Assembly (NCBI RefSeq): GCF_000737595.1
Contig: NZ_CP006271.1
Span: 372,001 to 436,000, forward strand
DNA length: 64,000 bases
Direction of reading: 5' to 3'
DNA from: Synechococcus sp. KORDI-52
Lineage (GTDB): Bacteria > Cyanobacteriota > Cyanobacteriia > PCC-6307 > Cyanobiaceae
In this document: positions 923 through 62,472 of the stretch, piece after piece
How positions within the stretch are numbered: the first letter of the stretch is position 1
How the letters are laid out: each line of letters starts with the position of its first letter
The notes under the pieces: model-generated
Told to the model about the DNA's origin: nothing
The model's database searches: none
What the model saw: only the letters and a program-made list of their open reading frames with translations
Position numbers and translations under genes: made by a program

Positions 923-1843
923 GTGAGCCATAGCGAGAACCTTTGGAGCTGGAAGGAGCGATCGATTGGCTGGAGCCGGATGGGCGAGGCAGATGCTGAA
1001 GAGGCGGTGCTGCTGATCCATGGCTTCGGGGCCAACACCAGCCACTGGCGCTTCAACCAACCGGTGCTGGCGGAGCAAGCTCCTACCTATGCCATTGATC
1101 TGCTGGGCTTCGGCCGCAGTGATCAACCCCGGGCCCGCTTGAAGGATGAAGCTGCAAGCGACGATGCGGTGCATTACGGCTTTGATCTCTGGGGTAAGCA
1201 AGTCGCCGACTTCTGCCATGAGGTGATCGATCGGCCGGTACGGCTTGTCGGCAATTCGATCGGCGGTGTCGTGGCCCTACGGGCGGCGCAGCTGCTGGGA
1301 GAGCATTGCCGAGGTGTGGTGCTGATCGACTGTGCCCAGCGCTTGATGGATGACAAGCAACTGGAAACCCAGCCGGCCTGGATGACATGGATCCGACCCG
1401 CGTTGAAGACCCTGGTGCGGCAGCGCTGGCTCAGCACCGCACTGTTCCGCAATGCTGCACGGCCTGGCGTGATCCGCAGCGTGTTGAAGCAGGCTTACCC
1501 CAGTGGCGCCAACATCGACGATGAACTGGTGAACCTGCTACTCAAACCCACACAACGGGATGGAGCCACTGAAGCCTTCCGCGGCTTCATCAACCTGTTC
1601 GATGACCATTTGGCTCCTCAATTGATGGAGGAGCTGAAAGTTCCGGTGCATCTGATCTGGGGCGCGAAGGATCCCTGGGAGCCGATTGCCGAGGCCAGAC
1701 GCTGGACACAGACCATCGGGTGTATCGAATCACTGGAGGTGATTCCTGAGGCAGGTCACTGTCCCCATGACGAAGCACCGGATCAGGTGAATCCAGTGCT
1801 TCAACGATTGATCAAAACAGCATCAACTCAACAGGCAACGTAG
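923..1843 (+). CDS. alpha/beta-fold hydrolase
   Basis: A 306-residue soluble protein with the complete alpha/beta hydrolase layout. The oxyanion-side motif LLIHGFGANTSHW lies near residue 32, the nucleophile elbow GNSIGG (Ser) near 108, the acid WGAKDPWEP near 249, and the catalytic His in EAGHCPHDEAP near 279. Cyanobacterial relatives of this size are often annotated as pheophytinase-like or generic hydrolases, and the substrate is not known from sequence. The start is GTG. The 3' end overlaps the convergent sigma factor gene by 16 bases. Confidence 0.85.
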   Translation: MSHSENLWSWKERSIGWSRMGEADAEEAVLLIHGFGANTSHWRFNQPVLAEQAPTYAIDLLGFGRSDQPRARLKDEAASDDAVHYGFDLWGKQVADFCHEVIDRPVRLVGNSIGGVVALRAAQLLGEHCRGVVLIDCAQRLMDDKQLETQPAWMTWIRPALKTLVRQRWLSTALFRNAARPGVIRSVLKQAYPSGANIDDELVNLLLKPTQRDGATEAFRGFINLFDDHLAPQLMEELKVPVHLIWGAKDPWEPIAEARRWTQTIGCIESLEVIPEAGHCPHDEAPDQVNPVLQRLIKTASTQQAT

Positions 1844-2835
1844 GCCTCCACCTGATCACTCACGCGACGCAGACCAGCCAAACCATCACGCTCCAGATTC
1901 CGTACCCGATCGCGGCTCATTCCAAGGATCCTGCCGATGCCGGTGAGACTCATCGGATCTTCACCATCCATGCCGTAACGCATGCGCAGCACCTGCTCCT
2001 GCAGATGGGGCAACTGGCCCAAGAGACTACGCAAATCACCCTTAAGACAGTCTTCCTCAACCTGGTCGCTGGGAAGATCTCCTTCACCGGAGAGCAGCTC
2101 CAGCAGTTCGGTGTCATCACCATCACCCACCTTCATCTCAAGGCTCACCGGCTGACGAGCACGGCACATGAGGTCCTTGACGTCGTCTTCTGGGAGTTCA
2201 ACGAACTCGGCCAGCTCAGTGACGGTGGGCGTGCGACCAAGCTCCTGACTCAGCTCCCGCTGGCCTTTCTTGAGCTTGTTCAACATCTCGGTGATGTGAA
2301 TCGGCAGGCGAATCGTGCGGCTCTTCTCAGCGATGGCCCGGGTGATGCCCTGACGAATCCACCAGTAGGCATATGTGGAAAACTTGTAACCACGGGTGGG
2401 ATCAAATTTTTCCACTCCGCGGACCAGGCCAATGGTTCCTTCCTGGATCAGATCCAGCAGTTCCATGTTCCGCTTGGTGTACTTCTTGGCCACGCTCACC
2501 ACCAGTCTCAGGTTGGCAGCCACCATCCGTTCTTTCGCACGACGACCATGTTGCAGCTTGCGCTTGAGCTGCATGGAAGACAGTCCAGAAGCTTTTGCAA
2601 GCTTGTCTCGGCTGGGCTTTTCACCTTCCTTGCTCTCCAGTTCAGACTCGAGTGACTCCAGATCCATCAGCTCCTGAACCTGTCGCCCAAGGGTGATCTC
2701 CTGCTCATGGGTCAGCAGCGGAACACGGCCGATGTCGCGCAGATAAGAACGGACCAGATCGACGTCAGCCGTAACGGTTTTCGCAGCCTTAGCAGCAGTT
2801 TTGGGCTTGGAAGCAGCGGTCGCAGCCGGAGCCAT
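1828..2835 (-). CDS. group 2 RNA polymerase sigma-70 factor
   Basis: A 335-residue sigma factor. After an Ala/Lys-rich N-terminal tail (about 25 residues) comes region 1.2 (DLVRSYLRDIGRVPLLTHEQE). Region 2 has the core-binding and -10 recognition segments (DLIQEGTIGLVRGVEKFD, then KFSTYAYWWIRQGITRAI). Region 3 follows, then region 4 with the helix-turn-helix SLTGIGRILGMSRDRVRNLE. The absence of region 1.1 and the length place it in group 2, the non-essential RpoD-like sigmas of which cyanobacteria carry several for light, nutrient and circadian responses. Which one it is (SigB, C, D or E class) cannot be settled by eye. Confidence 0.93.
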   Translation of the reverse strand: MAPAATAASKPKTAAKAAKTVTADVDLVRSYLRDIGRVPLLTHEQEITLGRQVQELMDLESLESELESKEGEKPSRDKLAKASGLSSMQLKRKLQHGRRAKERMVAANLRLVVSVAKKYTKRNMELLDLIQEGTIGLVRGVEKFDPTRGYKFSTYAYWWIRQGITRAIAEKSRTIRLPIHITEMLNKLKKGQRELSQELGRTPTVTELAEFVELPEDDVKDLMCRARQPVSLEMKVGDGDDTELLELLSGEGDLPSDQVEEDCLKGDLRSLLGQLPHLQEQVLRMRYGMDGEDPMSLTGIGRILGMSRDRVRNLERDGLAGLRRVSDQVEAYVAC

Positions 2836-2889
2836 GGGGCGCTTCTTTGAGTTATGTAAAGAGTACTCCTAAGAATCGTTAACAGACTC

Positions 2890-4350
2890 TCAGAAAGCCA
2901 GCAAAGCAAAGAAATGGGTAGAAATACCTGCGGTCTGCAGCAGCTGTGGCAAGTGGATCAGCAGCCATCCCGCTGTCTTCAAGTAGATCAGCGTGCCAGC
3001 CACGTCAGTGCAGGTGGTGATGAACGGCGTGGACATCAGCGCTGGATCCAAACCCATGCGGTGAAACAGCAGCGGGAAAGCCGCGCCTGCGGTGGCAGCC
3101 AGGGTGGTGATCGCCAGCAGGCTCATCCCCACAGACAGGCCCACCAGGGCGCTTTCCCCTCTCCACCAGGCAAAGGGCAGCACCAACAGCATCATCAACA
3201 CCCCCAGCAGAGCCCCCGCCATGGCTTCGCGCCCAATGGCACGCCAGGGACCGAGGGCAGAGATGCTCTCGGTGCTCAAACCACGGATCACCACGGTGGA
3301 GCTTTGGGCCCCCACATTGCCTCCGGTGCCAACGAGCAAGGGGATAAACGCCGCCAGCAAAACCACCCGCTCCAGCACCTCTTCATTGGAGGCGATCACT
3401 TCCGAGGTGAAAAAACTGGCGAGCACCAGCACCGCCAGCCACACCACGCGGCGTCGGGCGACGGTGAACAGATTGCTGCTGAAATAATCATCGTCATCAC
3501 CGGCCTGAACTGCGCCAGCCGCATAGAGATCACGGGTGGCCTCTTGCTCGATCACATCGATCACGTCGTCCACCGTGACGATGCCCACGAGTCGCTGTTC
3601 CCGATCCACCACAGGAACGGCGAGAAAGTCGTAACGCTGAATCGTGCGGGCCACCTTCTCCTGATCGGTGTCGGTGCTGACGCTGAGCACCTCCTCCGTC
3701 ATCACACCGCCGATGCGGGCCTGGGGGTCAGCTGTCACCAGATCCCTGAGCGACAGAATTCCGCTGAGGCGTCGCTCCGCATCCGTCACGTAGAGGGAAT
3801 AAATCGTCTCGGTGTCCCGGGCGCGCCGCCGCACGATTTCCAGCGCCACAGCTGCGGTCTGGTTTTCCTTGAGAGCGATGTACTCGGTGGTCATCAAGCG
3901 ACCGGCCGTCTCAGAGCGGTACCCCAGGAGTTCAGCAGTCACCTTGCGCTCATCCGGGCTGAGCTCACTGAGCAACTGCCGCACCACCTTGGCCGGGAGC
4001 TCTTCGAACAAGCGAGCGCGGTCATCCGGAGACATCTCCTCCACCACCTCCCGCATCTCACCAGAACGCAACAGGCTCAGCAGGCTCTGCTGGGTGGCCG
4101 TGTCGAGGTACTCATACACACTGATGGCTTCATCCTTGCTGAGCAGGCGAAAGGCGATCGCCTGCAGGTTGACTGGAAGCGTTCCGATCGCTTGAGCGAT
4201 ATCCACCGGCTGAACAGGTTCCAGCAGCAATTTGACGGCGTCGTAATTGCCCGCCTGCAACATCGCGGCGAGCTCGTGGGAGACGGCCTCGGCCAGCAAC
4301 TCGTGCTCCACGCCCATGCCAGCACTGCTCAGCCCCGATGCCTCCGTCAT
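2890..4350 (-). CDS. mgtE: magnesium transporter MgtE
   Basis: A 486-residue Mg2+ channel/transporter of the inner membrane. The N-terminal helical MgtE_N domain (residues ~35-135) includes LSPDERKVTAELLGYRSETAGRLM, which joins the Mg2+-sensing N domain to the paired CBS domains (~140-265). The plug-helix region and five transmembrane segments follow (~300-480). The pore-lining stretch GTGGNVGAQSSTVVIRGL is diagnostic. In this family, Mg2+ binding to the cytosolic N/CBS domains closes the pore. The gene is read on the same strand as the sigma factor, 54 bases upstream of it. Confidence 0.95.
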   Translation of the reverse strand: MTEASGLSSAGMGVEHELLAEAVSHELAAMLQAGNYDAVKLLLEPVQPVDIAQAIGTLPVNLQAIAFRLLSKDEAISVYEYLDTATQQSLLSLLRSGEMREVVEEMSPDDRARLFEELPAKVVRQLLSELSPDERKVTAELLGYRSETAGRLMTTEYIALKENQTAAVALEIVRRRARDTETIYSLYVTDAERRLSGILSLRDLVTADPQARIGGVMTEEVLSVSTDTDQEKVARTIQRYDFLAVPVVDREQRLVGIVTVDDVIDVIEQEATRDLYAAGAVQAGDDDDYFSSNLFTVARRRVVWLAVLVLASFFTSEVIASNEEVLERVVLLAAFIPLLVGTGGNVGAQSSTVVIRGLSTESISALGPWRAIGREAMAGALLGVLMMLLVLPFAWWRGESALVGLSVGMSLLAITTLAATAGAAFPLLFHRMGLDPALMSTPFITTCTDVAGTLIYLKTAGWLLIHLPQLLQTAGISTHFFALLAF

Positions 4351-4422
4351 GCCCCTCCGGCCGGGAGCCCAGTGTATGGCCGTTACAGCCGGTTAACCTC
4401 TGCGCTCTATCCCTGTTCCACC

Positions 4423-4896
4423 ATGGCGATCAGCGTCAGTTCCGTCTCCGTCACCACCCCCGACGGCAGCAGCAAATCCCTGGGCGACTACGCCGGCAAG
4501 GTGCTGCTGATCGTGAACGTGGCCAGCCGCTGTGGCTTTACCAAACAATACGCCGGCCTCCAGGCCCTGAACGAGGCCTACGCCGCCAAGGGCCTGGCCG
4601 TTCTGGGTTTCCCCTGCAACGACTTCGGCGCCCAGGAGCCCGGCAGCCTCGACGAGATCAAGAGCTTCTGCTCCACCACCTACGGCGCCGACTTCGAACT
4701 CTTCGAGAAGGTGCACGCCAAGGGCAGCACCACCGAGCCTTACACCACCCTCAATCAAATGGATCCCGCCGGTGATGTGGAGTGGAACTTCGAGAAATTC
4801 CTCGTGGGCAAGGACGGCACCGTGATCGCCCGCTTCAAGAGTGGCGTCACACCGGAAGACCTCAAGTCGGCGATTGAGGCGGCCCTGGCGGATTGA
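4423..4896 (+). CDS. glutathione peroxidase-like peroxiredoxin (Cys type)
   Basis: A 157-residue thioredoxin-fold peroxidase that reduces lipid or hydrogen peroxides with a thiol donor. The active-site Cys replaces selenocysteine in NVASRCGFTKQY (residue ~34). The tetrad partners are Gln in FPCNDFGAQEPGS and Trp in VEWNFEKFLV. The second motif Cys (FPCN) is also present. Non-animal enzymes of this kind usually use thioredoxin rather than glutathione. The frame is open far upstream across mgtE, but homology begins at the ATG at 4423, so the start is placed there. It is divergent from mgtE, with 72 bases between the starts. Confidence 0.92.
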   Translation: MAISVSSVSVTTPDGSSKSLGDYAGKVLLIVNVASRCGFTKQYAGLQALNEAYAAKGLAVLGFPCNDFGAQEPGSLDEIKSFCSTTYGADFELFEKVHAKGSTTEPYTTLNQMDPAGDVEWNFEKFLVGKDGTVIARFKSGVTPEDLKSAIEAALAD

Positions 4897-5260
4897 GCCG
4901 TCGCCCCAGGCTGAACCCAAGGGCTGCGGCACCCAGCCCCAGCCCGAGGGTCAGCCCGATCAAGCCCAAGGCGGCAGCCCAATCTCCGGAACTCAGGTGC
5001 TTCATGGCCGCCAGCATCCAGCTGCTGAAGGTGGTGAGCGAGCCACAGAAGCCAATGCCCAGCAGCAACTGCCGCCGCGGTGCGGCGGGAAGCCCGGCCA
5101 GCAAGCCCAACAGGGCAGCCCCCAGAACGTTGACCAGCAGGTTCTGATCTCCCAGACGATGAACCACCTGCCAGCGCAGGAGCGCTCCGGGCACGGCGCC
5201 CAGCCCCACGAGAAGCAGCTCCTGCAGTTCCAGTTGCAGGCTCGGTTTCGTTTCAGGCAT
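4862..5260 (-). CDS. crcB: CrcB/Fluc fluoride channel subunit (second of a pair)
   Basis: A 132-residue, four-helix membrane protein of the Fluc/CrcB family, which exports fluoride as a dimer. Landmarks are [14 protein letters not shown] in TM1, the conserved Asn in [14 protein letters not shown] (TM2), and [12 protein letters not shown] (the TM3 break with the Phe/Thr/Ser pore motif). The start is placed at the ATG at 5260, which overlaps the upstream crcB by 8 bases. The 3' end overlaps the convergent peroxidase gene by 35 bases. Adjacent unequal crcB copies usually form antiparallel heterodimers, which is the likely arrangement here. Confidence 0.88.
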
Positions 5261-58814: not shown

Positions 58815-59280
58815 TCACTCAGGGCTTCTGGGTCTGACCCTTCTGGCTGCCGTGTTGCTGGCAGGCTGCCAAACCGAACAGCCCTCAAAACCACCTTCCA
58901 ACACACCGACAGCACTCGTCACCAGTTGCCTGGGGGACTTCCGGATCGAAGACCTCAAGCTCATGGTCGAACGCTGCGATGAGGCCATTGGTCAGTCACC
59001 GGATCAAGCCGAACTGCGTCGGGACCGCGCTCTTATCTTGACTCTGCTTGGCGATCAATCCAAAGCCTGCAATGACGTCGACGCAGCACTATCGCTGCTG
59101 ACGCAATCAAACCAGCCGATCGATCCGATGCTGCAGCACGAACTCCAAGTGCGTCAGGCCGCCTGCAAACAATCCCGCACCATGGCGGGCAAGGATTGGC
59201 GCTCCAATGTCAATCGCCGAGGCCCCATCAACACCTCGATCCGTTCCGCCTTGCTGGCCAACAATCCATCCACCAACTGA
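58756..59280 (+). CDS. putative lipoprotein with TPR-like region
   Basis: The lipobox LLAGC (Cys at ~38) after the hydrophobic run GLTLLAAVLLAG is clear. The mature part has Cys in SCLGDF, ERCDEA, KACNDV and AACKQS, and a helical repeat region (DQAELRRDRALILTLLGDQS). The start is unsure: TTG 58756 gives a ~38-residue lead before the Cys, ATG 58696 a longer one; both lie inside the preceding gene. The last 127 bases are antisense to the end of the SNF2 gene. Confidence 0.6.
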   Translation: MDSPHPSPAAPTTQRATATDHSGLLGLTLLAAVLLAGCQTEQPSKPPSNTPTALVTSCLGDFRIEDLKLMVERCDEAIGQSPDQAELRRDRALILTLLGDQSKACNDVDAALSLLTQSNQPIDPMLQHELQVRQAACKQSRTMAGKDWRSNVNRRGPINTSIRSALLANNPSTN

Positions 59281-60782
59281 TCTGCGGCGCCGAGCTGCAG
59301 CCAGTGGCAGGTCAGGCCACCGCCCATCCCAAGACGATGACAGCGGTCTTCAGCTTGGTCGAGGTCGCCGGGCGTCCACGGGCGTTCCAGCAACACCACA
59401 TGTCGAGCCCTGTGAAGGGTGAAGCCGAGGGAACCAGTGCCGAAGGTGGCCAGCAGACAATCGTTCTGACCCTGCTGAAAACGATCCACACACTGCTGAC
59501 GTTCAGCGGGGCTCTGGCGACCGGTCAACAATTCCCCACCGAGGGTTTGCTGCAAAAGCTGCAACGGAGCCACGAAGCCACTGAACAACACCACCGCTTC
59601 CCCTTCTCGACGCAATGACTCGACCAGTTGCTGAGCCGCAGGCAATTTGAATTCAGCTGCGATCTGGCGCATGGAGGTCAGCAAGGCCAGGTGCTCAGCA
59701 TCCCGTCGCACCTCTCCACGACGGGCTCGACGCCTGTAGTCATCCAGCACCAGCCCAACACGATGATCAAAACCCGTGCTCTCAGCCTCCGAAAGAGCCA
59801 AAGGGTGTAGACGCCGCCGCTTGGGTGGAAGGTCCACCACCTGCTGTTTGCGACGATGCAGTATTAAGGGGCGGCTCAACCGCCGCAGCTCTTCCAATTG
59901 ACTCGCGCCTGTCGCCTGCCACCGTTTACCGGATCGGCTCTCCCGCCAGTGGCCTTGGCAATAACGCTCCTCGAACTGGCGTTGATCCCGCGCAATCGGA
60001 TGATCCATAGCCGCAAGCAGGGGATACAGCTGAGAGGGGCGACCGTTCTTCATTGGAGTTCCCGTCAGCATCCAGATCGCGCGCAGACGGGGATGACGGG
60101 CCAGTCGTAACAAAGCCGCCGTGCGCTGCGCCTTAAGTGACTGGGCGTAATGCGCTTCATCCACCACCAAGAGGGTTCCTGCCGGCGGCAGGTTGTCGGG
60201 GAGCCGGGCCCAACTCACCAACTCAAGCTCAACACCAACGGCCTCTGATTCCCGGCGCCAGTGGGGATGCAGGCCGACGGGGGCCACCACAAGCAGACGC
60301 ACCTCAGCACAACGCATCAGGGCACGGGCCGCCAACAGAGCTGTAAGGGTCTTCCCCAGCCCCATCTCATCCGCCAGAACGGCGCCGCGACGGGCCAGGA
60401 GCCAGCGGACCCCGGAGCGTTGATGGCGCAAGGGATGACGACCATCCTGCAGGGCTGTGTCGAGATCCGCCGCAGCCACAAGGGTCCGATGCGATGGCAG
60501 CGGTGGCAGGGGGTACTCGCACCAATCAAGCCATTCCTGCAAAGCGGAAGTGATGGGGAAACGCTGTCCCAGGGCCTGTTGAAGCGGATCGGCTGCCGCC
60601 AAGGGAAAGTCCCAGCCATGGCTTGGACCGTTCCAGCGTCCCCGAGGCCTGATCCGACGCAACTGGGCCTGGGTCACCGCATCGAAGGGACTGACCACAC
60701 GAATCAACCCAGCTGGAGAGAGATCCAGACAACAGGTCGTTGTGGGTTTTGGCGGCGTCAACAAGCCCCCACAAACGATCAC
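59154..60782 (-). CDS. SNF2-family DNA translocase with a HARP-like N-terminal motif
   Basis: 542 residues. Residues ~28-75 (LIRVVSPFDAVTQAQLRRI, then PRGRWNGPSHGWDFPLA) resemble the HARP motif of SMARCAL1-type annealing helicases. The SNF2 core follows: motif I VLADEMGLGKTLTALLAARA, motif II LLVVDEAHYAQSLKAQRTAA, motif III IWMLTGTPMKNGRPSQLYPL, motif V LLATFGTGSLGFTLHRARHV and motif VI LDQAEDRCHRLG. It is compact with no extra C-terminal domain. In eukaryotes such enzymes remodel stalled forks; the bacterial role is inferred. Start GTG 60782. It is divergent from the HNH gene. Confidence 0.88.
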   Translation of the reverse strand: MIVCGGLLTPPKPTTTCCLDLSPAGLIRVVSPFDAVTQAQLRRIRPRGRWNGPSHGWDFPLAAADPLQQALGQRFPITSALQEWLDWCEYPLPPLPSHRTLVAAADLDTALQDGRHPLRHQRSGVRWLLARRGAVLADEMGLGKTLTALLAARALMRCAEVRLLVVAPVGLHPHWRRESEAVGVELELVSWARLPDNLPPAGTLLVVDEAHYAQSLKAQRTAALLRLARHPRLRAIWMLTGTPMKNGRPSQLYPLLAAMDHPIARDQRQFEERYCQGHWRESRSGKRWQATGASQLEELRRLSRPLILHRRKQQVVDLPPKRRRLHPLALSEAESTGFDHRVGLVLDDYRRRARRGEVRRDAEHLALLTSMRQIAAEFKLPAAQQLVESLRREGEAVVLFSGFVAPLQLLQQTLGGELLTGRQSPAERQQCVDRFQQGQNDCLLATFGTGSLGFTLHRARHVVLLERPWTPGDLDQAEDRCHRLGMGGGLTCHWLQLGAADQLVDGLLASKAERIEVLMGPRRLTLERQSLPAMVRDCLQAA

Positions 60783-60870
60783 TTTAAGAAACTCGGTTCA
60801 GCGTGCAGGCTTTGAGATCAAGATTCACATCACAGGCGAAGAAACCTTCCAAAATGCAGCGTTCGACACA

Positions 60871-60898
60871 TTGACTGACTTTTCATTCACGGCAGAAT
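60871..60898 (+). promoter_or_regulatory. candidate sigma-70 promoter of the HNH gene
   Basis: TTGACT (60871-60876), 16 bases, CAGAAT (60893-60898, four of six matches). The HNH ATG is 22 bases further, giving a short leader. Judged by eye. Confidence 0.4.
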
Positions 60899-60919
60899 CA
60901 ATCCAACCGATGCATTCGG

Positions 60920-61315
60920 ATGCACAACAGGGACGCGGTTTTTCTCGACGAACTCTGTCCCAAATTACGTGTCCGAAGATGGCGACAGTCAATTCATACA
61001 TTTACAGGACAAAGTTGTATTTATTGCGGCAAACCTTCGGAGTCAATTGATCACATTCACCCCCGAGCAAGAGGGGGCTTGAGTGTGACCGAAAACTGTG
61101 TTCCGGCGTGCTTGGCCTGCAATGGCCGCAAATCTGACGCGGATGTTTTCGACTGGTATCGGCGGCAGCGTTTTTACGATCCACGGCGCGCCATGGCGAT
61201 TCGCGCCTGGATGGATGGCGACCTCCGGCTCGCCCTTCGATTGCTGCAATGGGCCCAGCCGGATCAACCCATCAGCGAACCGGAAGATTTCCCCGTCGCC
61301 GCCCAAGCCGCCTGA
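60920..61315 (+). CDS. HNH endonuclease domain protein
   Basis: 131 residues. The HNH/zinc-ribbon core is complete: CIYCGKPSESIDHIHPRARG (first Cys pair, catalytic His in DHIHP) and SVTENCVPACLACNGRKSDA (Asn and second Cys pair), the class of McrA/HNH_5-type nucleases. The C-terminal ~55 residues (ADVFDWYRRQRFYDPRRAMA onward) are helical. Such stand-alone HNH proteins are kept in picocyanobacteria with no known target. Divergent from the SNF2 gene, with 137 bases between the starts. Confidence 0.85.
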   Translation: MHNRDAVFLDELCPKLRVRRWRQSIHTFTGQSCIYCGKPSESIDHIHPRARGGLSVTENCVPACLACNGRKSDADVFDWYRRQRFYDPRRAMAIRAWMDGDLRLALRLLQWAQPDQPISEPEDFPVAAQAA

Positions 61316-61489: not shown

Positions 61490-61517
61490 AGTACATTTGA
61501 TCTAATACAGGTGTACT
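61490..61517. promoter_or_regulatory. dyad resembling two adjoining LexA-like boxes
   Basis: Outer arms AGTACA (61490-61495) and TGTACT (61512-61517). The two 14-base halves, AGTACATTTGATCT and AATACAGGTGTACT, each fit the published cyanobacterial LexA consensus RGTAC-N3-D-GTWC-B with one mismatch. The dyad lies between the divergent small secreted gene and the oxidoreductase and abuts the ATG of the latter. By-eye match only. Confidence 0.25.
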
Positions 61518-61518
61518 G

Positions 61519-62472
61519 ATGCTGATCGATCTTGTCAAGCGATCGAGGCCCCTGGCGTCTGACGCCAAGCTGCTGGTGCTGGGGGGTGGATACAGCGGAC
61601 GTTGTTTGGCCAGTCTGGCCCGCGCCATGGGAACTCCGGTGCTTTGCACCCGGCGCTCCCTCGACGCCACCCACGCTGATCTGCTCTTCGACAGCAACGG
61701 TCAGGACCGGCTCGACCCGGGCGCTCTGGAGGGCGTAACCCATCTGCTGTGCACCATCCCCCCGGATCGGGATGGAAACGATCCGGTGTTGTCGAAGCTG
61801 CTTGTCACACTCAGAAACCTGCCGCTGCGTTGGGCGGGCTATCTCTCCACGACAGGGGTCTATGGCGATCGTCAGGGCAGCTGGGTGTCCGAGCAGGACG
61901 AACCATCGCCGATGCTGGACCGCAGCATCCGCCGCCTGAATTGCGAAAAAGCTTGGCTGCACTCCGGTCTACCGATCCAGATTCTGCGCCTGCCTGGCAT
62001 CTATGGCCCAGGACGGTCGGTGCTTAACGCCTTGCACCAAGGGCGCGCACGCTTGATCGACAAACCTGGCCAGGTGTTCTGCCGTATCCATGTGGAAGAC
62101 ATCGCAGGGGCCTGCTGGCACCTCATGCATCGCACCGAGCAGGGAACTCCACCGACCATGGATCAAGGGAACCTGGTGAACGTGGTAGATGACCTCCCGG
62201 CTCCCACAGCGGAACTGATGCGGCATGCGGCATCCCTGTTGGGTTGTGCCCTACCGCCGCTGGAGCCGTTCGATCAAATCGTGGACAGCTTGAGCCCCAT
62301 GGCTCAGACGTTCTGGAGCGAGAACCGCCGCGTCAGCAATCACAAGCTCTGCCACGACCTCGGTTACACGCTGCTGCATCCGGACTACTTCAACGGGCTT
62401 CAGGATTGTTTGAACCAGGACAGACTCAATCCGCCTGACCTCCACTCCCCCCCTCGATCAACCAACGGTTGA
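61519..62472 (+). CDS. NAD(P)-binding oxidoreductase, extended SDR type (YeeZ-like)
   Basis: 317 residues. Rossmann motif KLLVLGGGYSGRCLASLARA (G-x-G-x-x-G at ~23). The SDR active-site region is AGYLSTTGVYGDRQGSWVSE, with a shifted Tyr and no clear YxxxK at the usual place (RLNCEKAWLHSG instead). The next segment, ILRLPGIYGPGRSVLNAL, is typical of the NAD-dependent epimerase-like group annotated YeeZ. Substrate unknown. The mature ATG lies directly after the dyad at 61490-61517, without room for a normal ribosome-binding site unless the dyad serves. Confidence 0.8.
   Translation: MLIDLVKRSRPLASDAKLLVLGGGYSGRCLASLARAMGTPVLCTRRSLDATHADLLFDSNGQDRLDPGALEGVTHLLCTIPPDRDGNDPVLSKLLVTLRNLPLRWAGYLSTTGVYGDRQGSWVSEQDEPSPMLDRSIRRLNCEKAWLHSGLPIQILRLPGIYGPGRSVLNALHQGRARLIDKPGQVFCRIHVEDIAGACWHLMHRTEQGTPPTMDQGNLVNVVDDLPAPTAELMRHAASLLGCALPPLEPFDQIVDSLSPMAQTFWSENRRVSNHKLCHDLGYTLLHPDYFNGLQDCLNQDRLNPPDLHSPPRSTNG

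Follow-up and report, generated by a model that had tools for sequence, protein, structure and literature searches.

The question raised by this locus is whether a SNF2-type motor gene and an HNH nuclease gene, transcribed away from each other in a picocyanobacterial chromosome, amount to a divided form of ZRANB3, a protein whose parts are a HARP-type domain, a SNF2 motor and an HNH domain. The genes lie in a 64,000 nt stretch (the window) of the genome of Synechococcus sp. KORDI-52, which is 2.57 Mb in length and forms one contig. A first-pass annotation of the window had suggested that they could be a two-gene bacterial counterpart of ZRANB3, acting on branched or stalled-fork DNA.

The SNF2 and HNH genes

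The SNF2-family DNA translocase, with its candidate HARP-type N-terminal domain, is encoded on the minus strand (59154–60782; 542 aa, GTG start) and the free-standing HNH protein on the plus strand (60920–61315; 131 aa, ATG start). Inspection of the open reading frames confirmed their positions, the divergent arrangement and the 137 bases of DNA between them (60783–60919), all as first annotated. The two-lobed motor occupies residues ~113–520 (59223–60446, minus strand), with the DEAH box at residues 208–211, and is matched by the Pfam families SNF2-rel_dom (E 9.8e-25) and Helicase_C (E 3.4e-13). Across 31 SNF2 orthologues there is little or no variation in MGLGKT, DEAH or the motif-VI region QAEDR-HR, and the predicted model of the protein fits SNF2-family structures from residue ~96 onward. 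The window protein has both the two lobes and the conserved helicase motifs of a SNF2-family member, and its reading frame and motor are intact. The exact start is unsure, because agreement among orthologues begins only at about residue 15.

The HNH protein is recognised by Pfam HNH (E 2.2e-10), and among solved structures its sequence is closest to that of the HNH endonuclease 4h9d (E 2.7e-7). The zinc-ribbon core (CxxC, DH, N, CxxCN; residues 33–68, 61016–61123, plus strand) is invariant in 31 orthologues, as are the individual residues C33, C36, D44, H45, N59, C64, C67, N68 and K71. The protein carries the zinc CxxC pairs and the H/N/N residues of an HNH nuclease, which bears out the earlier description of a neighbour complete in its metal and catalytic residues. 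Orthologue records come mostly from Synechococcus, Prochlorococcus, Cyanobium and Vulcanococcus. Identity to the window protein averages 80% in genomes with the SNF2 gene and 78% in those without it; for SNF2 itself the mean is 63%. In HNH-only genomes (such as those of loci L081–L093) HNH identity is 73–84%, and nearby pdxA has a mean of 57%. HNH is intact at all 13 SNF2-less loci examined (12 distinct sequences). As it is kept without SNF2 and is the slower-evolving of the two, HNH appears to have a role independent of SNF2.

The HNH protein has relatives in 219 phage records, many from cyanophages, and in the two phages examined they are single genes among tail/structural or unnamed genes. 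The free-standing HNH protein of Synechococcus phage S-EIVl is 43.5% identical over residues 7–98 but, unlike it, the window HNH is a fixed, slowly evolving chromosomal gene.

A conserved element, CGACACATTGAC, lies between the two genes at 60864–60875 (plus strand), 56 bases upstream of the HNH start codon. Allowing up to two mismatches, it was found at 48 of 62 loci compared with 11 of 1240 shuffled sequences; at that threshold it is missing from 9 of 13 SNF2-less loci and from 5 of the 49 others. It is probably part of the HNH promoter. LexA control of the SNF2/HNH pair was considered and rejected: the region upstream of HNH contains no LexA-like box (the best match in that region of the window has 5 mismatches), so SOS control of the divergent promoter is not supported.

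A palindrome, AATACAGGTGTACT, is present at 61504–61517, one base ahead of the ATG of an epimerase-like gene (61519–62472, plus strand), and is close to the cyanobacterial LexA-box consensus, published as AGTACWNWTGTACT (PMC3091678). Sites matching AATACANNTGTACT with at most one mismatch occur downstream of HNH at 57 of 62 loci and in none of 1240 shuffled sequences, and a site similar to AATACAGGTGTACT precedes umuDC in the KORDI-52 genome. Judged by these matches, the epimerase-like protein may be SOS-controlled.

The N-terminal domain of the SNF2 protein

SMARCAL1 is a human enzyme that rescues stalled replication. HARP domains, which occur in SMARCAL1 and at the N-terminal end of UvsW from phage T4, are important for fork reversal (PMC4666394). 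In the SNF2 protein, a HARP/XPB-DRD-like domain (~residues 17–75; 60558–60734, minus strand) carries the pattern PFDaVTqAQLRrIrPrG-W------WeFPl, and residues 17–75 are conserved across the family (alignment A2, 32 rows). The first-pass annotation had likened this segment to HARP, to be checked by a profile search. Taken directly, that check failed: neither the window protein, nor its N-terminus, nor any of 32 orthologous N-termini matched Pfam HARP (PF07443), the window protein and its orthologues falling below the gathering score of 25 bits. A search of KORDI-52's own genome with PF07443 gave three weak matches, none at the SNF2 locus, and an N-terminal profile made from orthologues only did not find HARP in the PDB.

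The AlphaFold model built on alignment A2 has a small alpha/beta domain (mean pLDDT 88.8) of order beta-beta-alpha-beta-beta-alpha, its four strands and two helices being accompanied by further helices. As modelled, residues ~17–75 are a real, conserved, folded domain. The first four ranks in VIA-align are archaeal XPB N-terminal domains (rmsd 1.8–2.1 over 50–53 residues), with Z values of 5.7–4.8 (the tool advises caution under 8); these rows are mutually consistent, and in XPB the domain is likewise placed ahead of the motor. Human and yeast XPB appear lower in the list, at smaller Z and amid unrelated rows. SMARCAL1 HARP is missing from the list, an absence that excludes nothing, and Foldseek gave no significant match in the PDB for the N-terminal domain (best E 1.1). 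Mason's 2014 paper on the HARP structure reportedly describes a resemblance of HARP to domains of XPB and MutS.

A connection to HARP was obtained through viral relatives of the SNF2 protein. From IMG/VR, the best 80 of 577 confirmed loci were taken, and the match extends into the N-terminal domain in 19 of these 80. Twelve viral relatives were picked by hand for complete ORFs and N-terminal overlap (alignment A5); nine of them were scanned with Pfam alongside the making of the alignment, and membership was left unchanged after the Pfam result. Alignment A4 is the A5 profile with the window row added, and a plasmid row (L188) was excluded from both. The A2 and A5 profiles matched in hhalign at 96.2% (E 2.1e-9, 61 columns), compared with 0.1% for control comparisons of the HNH profile with either one. 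PF07443 is the commonest Pfam match among the A5 members (10 of 12), the first member reaching E 5.4e-5 and 23.1 bits, slightly below the cut-off of 25. Of ten full-length relatives, nine from viruses and one from a plasmid, it matches four at E<0.01 and in the correct position. Against the PDB, the sole significant match of the A5 profile is the HARP domain of SMARCAL1 (4o66, E 8e-4); A4, which includes the window row, finds 4o66 at E 1.5e-4 and the next match at ~1.

In this way the viral relatives link the window domain by homology to a HARP domain whose structure has been solved. Because the chain of profiles through relatives leads to HARP, the N-terminal domain is taken as HARP-type by descent, and as too distant for direct search. 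The proposed HARP likeness holds as far as the profiles of viral relatives, which reach PF07443 and 4o66, and the XPB-like predicted fold carry it, and does not hold as a direct Pfam match.

Gene order, co-occurrence and losses

A search of 251 Cyanobiaceae genomes located SNF2 in 167 of them and HNH in 219; 165 carry both, 2 SNF2 only, 54 HNH only and 30 neither. The two SNF2-only genomes are both incomplete (G172, 74% complete; G232, 55% complete). Co-occurrence does not hold in both directions, with 54 of 219 HNH-bearing genomes lacking SNF2 and 2 of 167 SNF2-bearing genomes lacking HNH. Where the positions of both genes were listed, they are divergent neighbours in every genome (109 of 109), with 68–277 bases between the matches. 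Named loci were collected by their HNH gene (the best 80 of 472), and 75 were usable, the other 5 being too short. Among these 75 of the best 80, SNF2 is present at 63, divergent from HNH in all 63, and is lacking at 12, every one from Prochlorococcus. The family-wide divergent adjacency therefore represents linkage far beyond close strains, and the neighbouring of the two genes in marine and freshwater picocyanobacteria is old and stable.

In a genome of the same genus as the window (locus L086, genome G008), HNH is intact and SNF2 is gone, with no SNF2 remnant detectable in the 0.85 kb between HNH and a TPR gene. At locus L093, which begins at the HNH gene and belongs to the same genome as L060, the absence of SNF2 was taken from the genome search. 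In genome G080 (locus L232, 7166–7424), both HNH and SNF2 are cleanly absent from an otherwise intact block, leaving 258 bases between the TPR gene and the epimerase-like gene. A guaA tree was made for 29 of 30 genomes (G134 was dropped for a split match), and 10 of its 26 inner branches are open. Genomes without both genes fall in two places among two-gene genomes and, by eye, the tree suggests several losses of SNF2 only and two losses of both, with support that is poor in parts and few events. The near-absence of SNF2-only genomes, together with the joint loss, hints at some dependence of SNF2 on HNH.

The pair is part of a larger block, in the order accB-pdxA-epimerase-HNH-SNF2-TPR-DUF6554-...-aminotransferase. 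In the loci read, this order is kept in 20 with SNF2 and, minus SNF2, in 13 without it; gaps in it correspond to contig ends, or to genes that are missing or not recognised. HNH is followed by the epimerase-like gene in 33 of 33 loci (at 1.6 kb in L073), and its linkage to this gene and to pdxA equals or exceeds its linkage to SNF2. Linkage as proof of shared function was rejected: since the entire surrounding block from accB to the aminotransferase gene is syntenic, adjacency does not prove joint function. A survey of gene neighbourhoods had been proposed in search of conserved adjacency or fusions; adjacency is conserved family-wide, and no SNF2-HNH fusion was found in the loci read.

Outside the family, 194 genomes drawn from the class yielded one with a good SNF2 match, near which there is no related HNH. 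The SNF2 protein is ~40% identical to proteins on plasmids of Microcystis, Nostoc and Synechococcus sp. PCC 7502. None of five annotated plasmid/phage relatives, Thermus phage MN1 among them, has an adjacent HNH gene, and one plasmid relative has an HNH gene 5.9 kb away. A motif scan that recovers all 33 Cyanobiaceae loci as a control found an HNH motif within 1 kb of SNF2 at 1 of 72 viral loci.

One viral SNF2 relative (L094, an IMG/VR contig, 1667–5131) carries an intein-like insert exactly inside its DEAH box. The insert is overlapped, in a different frame, by another open frame (290 aa) in which zinc-finger-like and Vsr-like parts were recognised by eye.

Interpretation of the locus

The reading we favour, at a probability of about 0.62, is that of a HARP-type SNF2 translocase acting on branched DNA beside a self-sufficient HNH protein, the two being neighbours through a stable inherited block. 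By analogy, the SNF2 protein probably works as a HARP-type motor in branch migration or fork remodelling. It would be a single-chain dsDNA translocase like the minimal catalytic part of SMARCAL1, its N-terminal domain binding branched DNA (stalled forks, D-loops, junctions) and its motor using ATP to pump duplex DNA, so that strands re-anneal or the branch migrates. Substrate and activities are what we infer from the architecture and from the known behaviour of SMARCAL1 and UvsW. The HNH protein would be a core picocyanobacterial nuclease that is separate from the motor and better conserved, has relatives among the free-standing HNH proteins of cyanophages, and cleaves or nicks DNA by itself. 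The two genes would remain neighbours because they lie in a stable, vertically inherited block. Coupling between them would be optional, the motor at most depending on the nuclease; as HNH often survives alone, the pair is probably not a fixed two-part machine.

The closest known parallel in layout is the catalytic core of SMARCAL1, in which one HARP-type domain of similar size also directly precedes a SNF2 motor of similar size, and to whose HARP structure (4o66) the window domain is linked by profiles through relatives; unlike SMARCAL1, the window family is bacterial and has no detectable Pfam HARP score. SMARCAL1 also has an RPA-binding part (PMC4035279). T4 UvsW and the XPB helicases with a damage-recognition domain share the N-terminal fold (predicted in the window protein) and its place before helicase lobe 1, whereas the window motor is of SNF2 type. 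Viral and plasmid SNF2 helicases (PHROG 62, IMG/VR) are the closest homologues outside the family and some of them share the architecture, but they often have a longer N-terminus, are mobile and are without an HNH neighbour.

In ZRANB3 the motor precedes the substrate-recognition domain, in which the mutation F736A lies. In paper titles the protein, also called AH2, is described as HARP-like and as having an HNH motif, and the window locus likewise contains a SNF2 motor, a HARP-like domain and an HNH domain. Here, however, motor and HNH are separate divergent genes on opposite strands and not one chain, HNH is often kept without the motor, and the HARP-type domain comes before the motor and not after it. 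No description of a bacterial HARP-SNF2/HNH pair was found in the open-access literature searched.

That the locus holds ZRANB3's parts is the starting point for reading it as a two-gene counterpart, in which the SNF2 motor brings or positions HNH at branched DNA and the two work as one fork- or junction-processing unit. Such a unit would fit the divergent arrangement in all 109 genomes and all 63 named SNF2 loci, the rarity of SNF2 without HNH (2 of 167 genomes, both incomplete) and the clean loss of both genes in G080, but it is at odds with the 54 of 219 HNH-bearing genomes that have no SNF2, the at least equally tight linkage of HNH to pdxA and the epimerase-like gene, the lack of adjacent HNH in the five plasmid/phage relatives and of a motif within 1 kb at all but 1 of 72 viral loci, and the lack of fusions in the loci read; we consider it unlikely. 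The step from adjacency to a ZRANB3-like machine, as first annotated, accordingly gives way before the larger syntenic block, the HNH-only genomes and the HNH-less SNF2 relatives. A divided ZRANB3 could also take the form of a HARP-type SNF2 motor that depends on a dedicated divergent HNH protein with a further role of its own, so that loss of the motor would spare the nuclease and not the reverse; this form, too, is doubtful.

The SNF2 protein might instead be a helicase from a defence system or mobile element that the chromosome has retained; its ~40% identity to the plasmid proteins, its many viral relatives and motor matches to DpdE, ZorD and DrmD would allow for that. This is very unlikely given the fixed place of the gene in a housekeeping block across the family; the partner genes of the DpdE, ZorD and DrmD systems do not adjoin SNF2, and the PADLOC matches listed span only stretches of the shared motor. 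The HARP likeness might also be just a common small alpha/beta shape, on a motor that, say, clears DNA-bound proteins or remodels RNA polymerase. The failure of direct HARP searches and the weak Foldseek values would suit this, but the profile chain to 4o66 and PF07443, and a best fold match (XPB-DRD) in the same position before the motor, make it highly improbable.

The favoured reading, of a HARP-type motor beside a self-sufficient nuclease, means that the HARP-type fork-remodelling architecture of animal SMARCAL1 and phage UvsW also occurs in a gene conserved widely among picocyanobacteria, and the viral and plasmid relatives could show the origin of the eukaryotic HARP-SNF2 type. Within streamlined Prochlorococcus, the analysis further points to a predicted HNH nuclease that is small and highly conserved. 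An orphan core HNH nuclease and a HARP-type SNF2 gene of picocyanobacteria are both worth testing, and Prochlorococcus lineages with and without the motor offer a ready natural comparison for DNA-damage tolerance.
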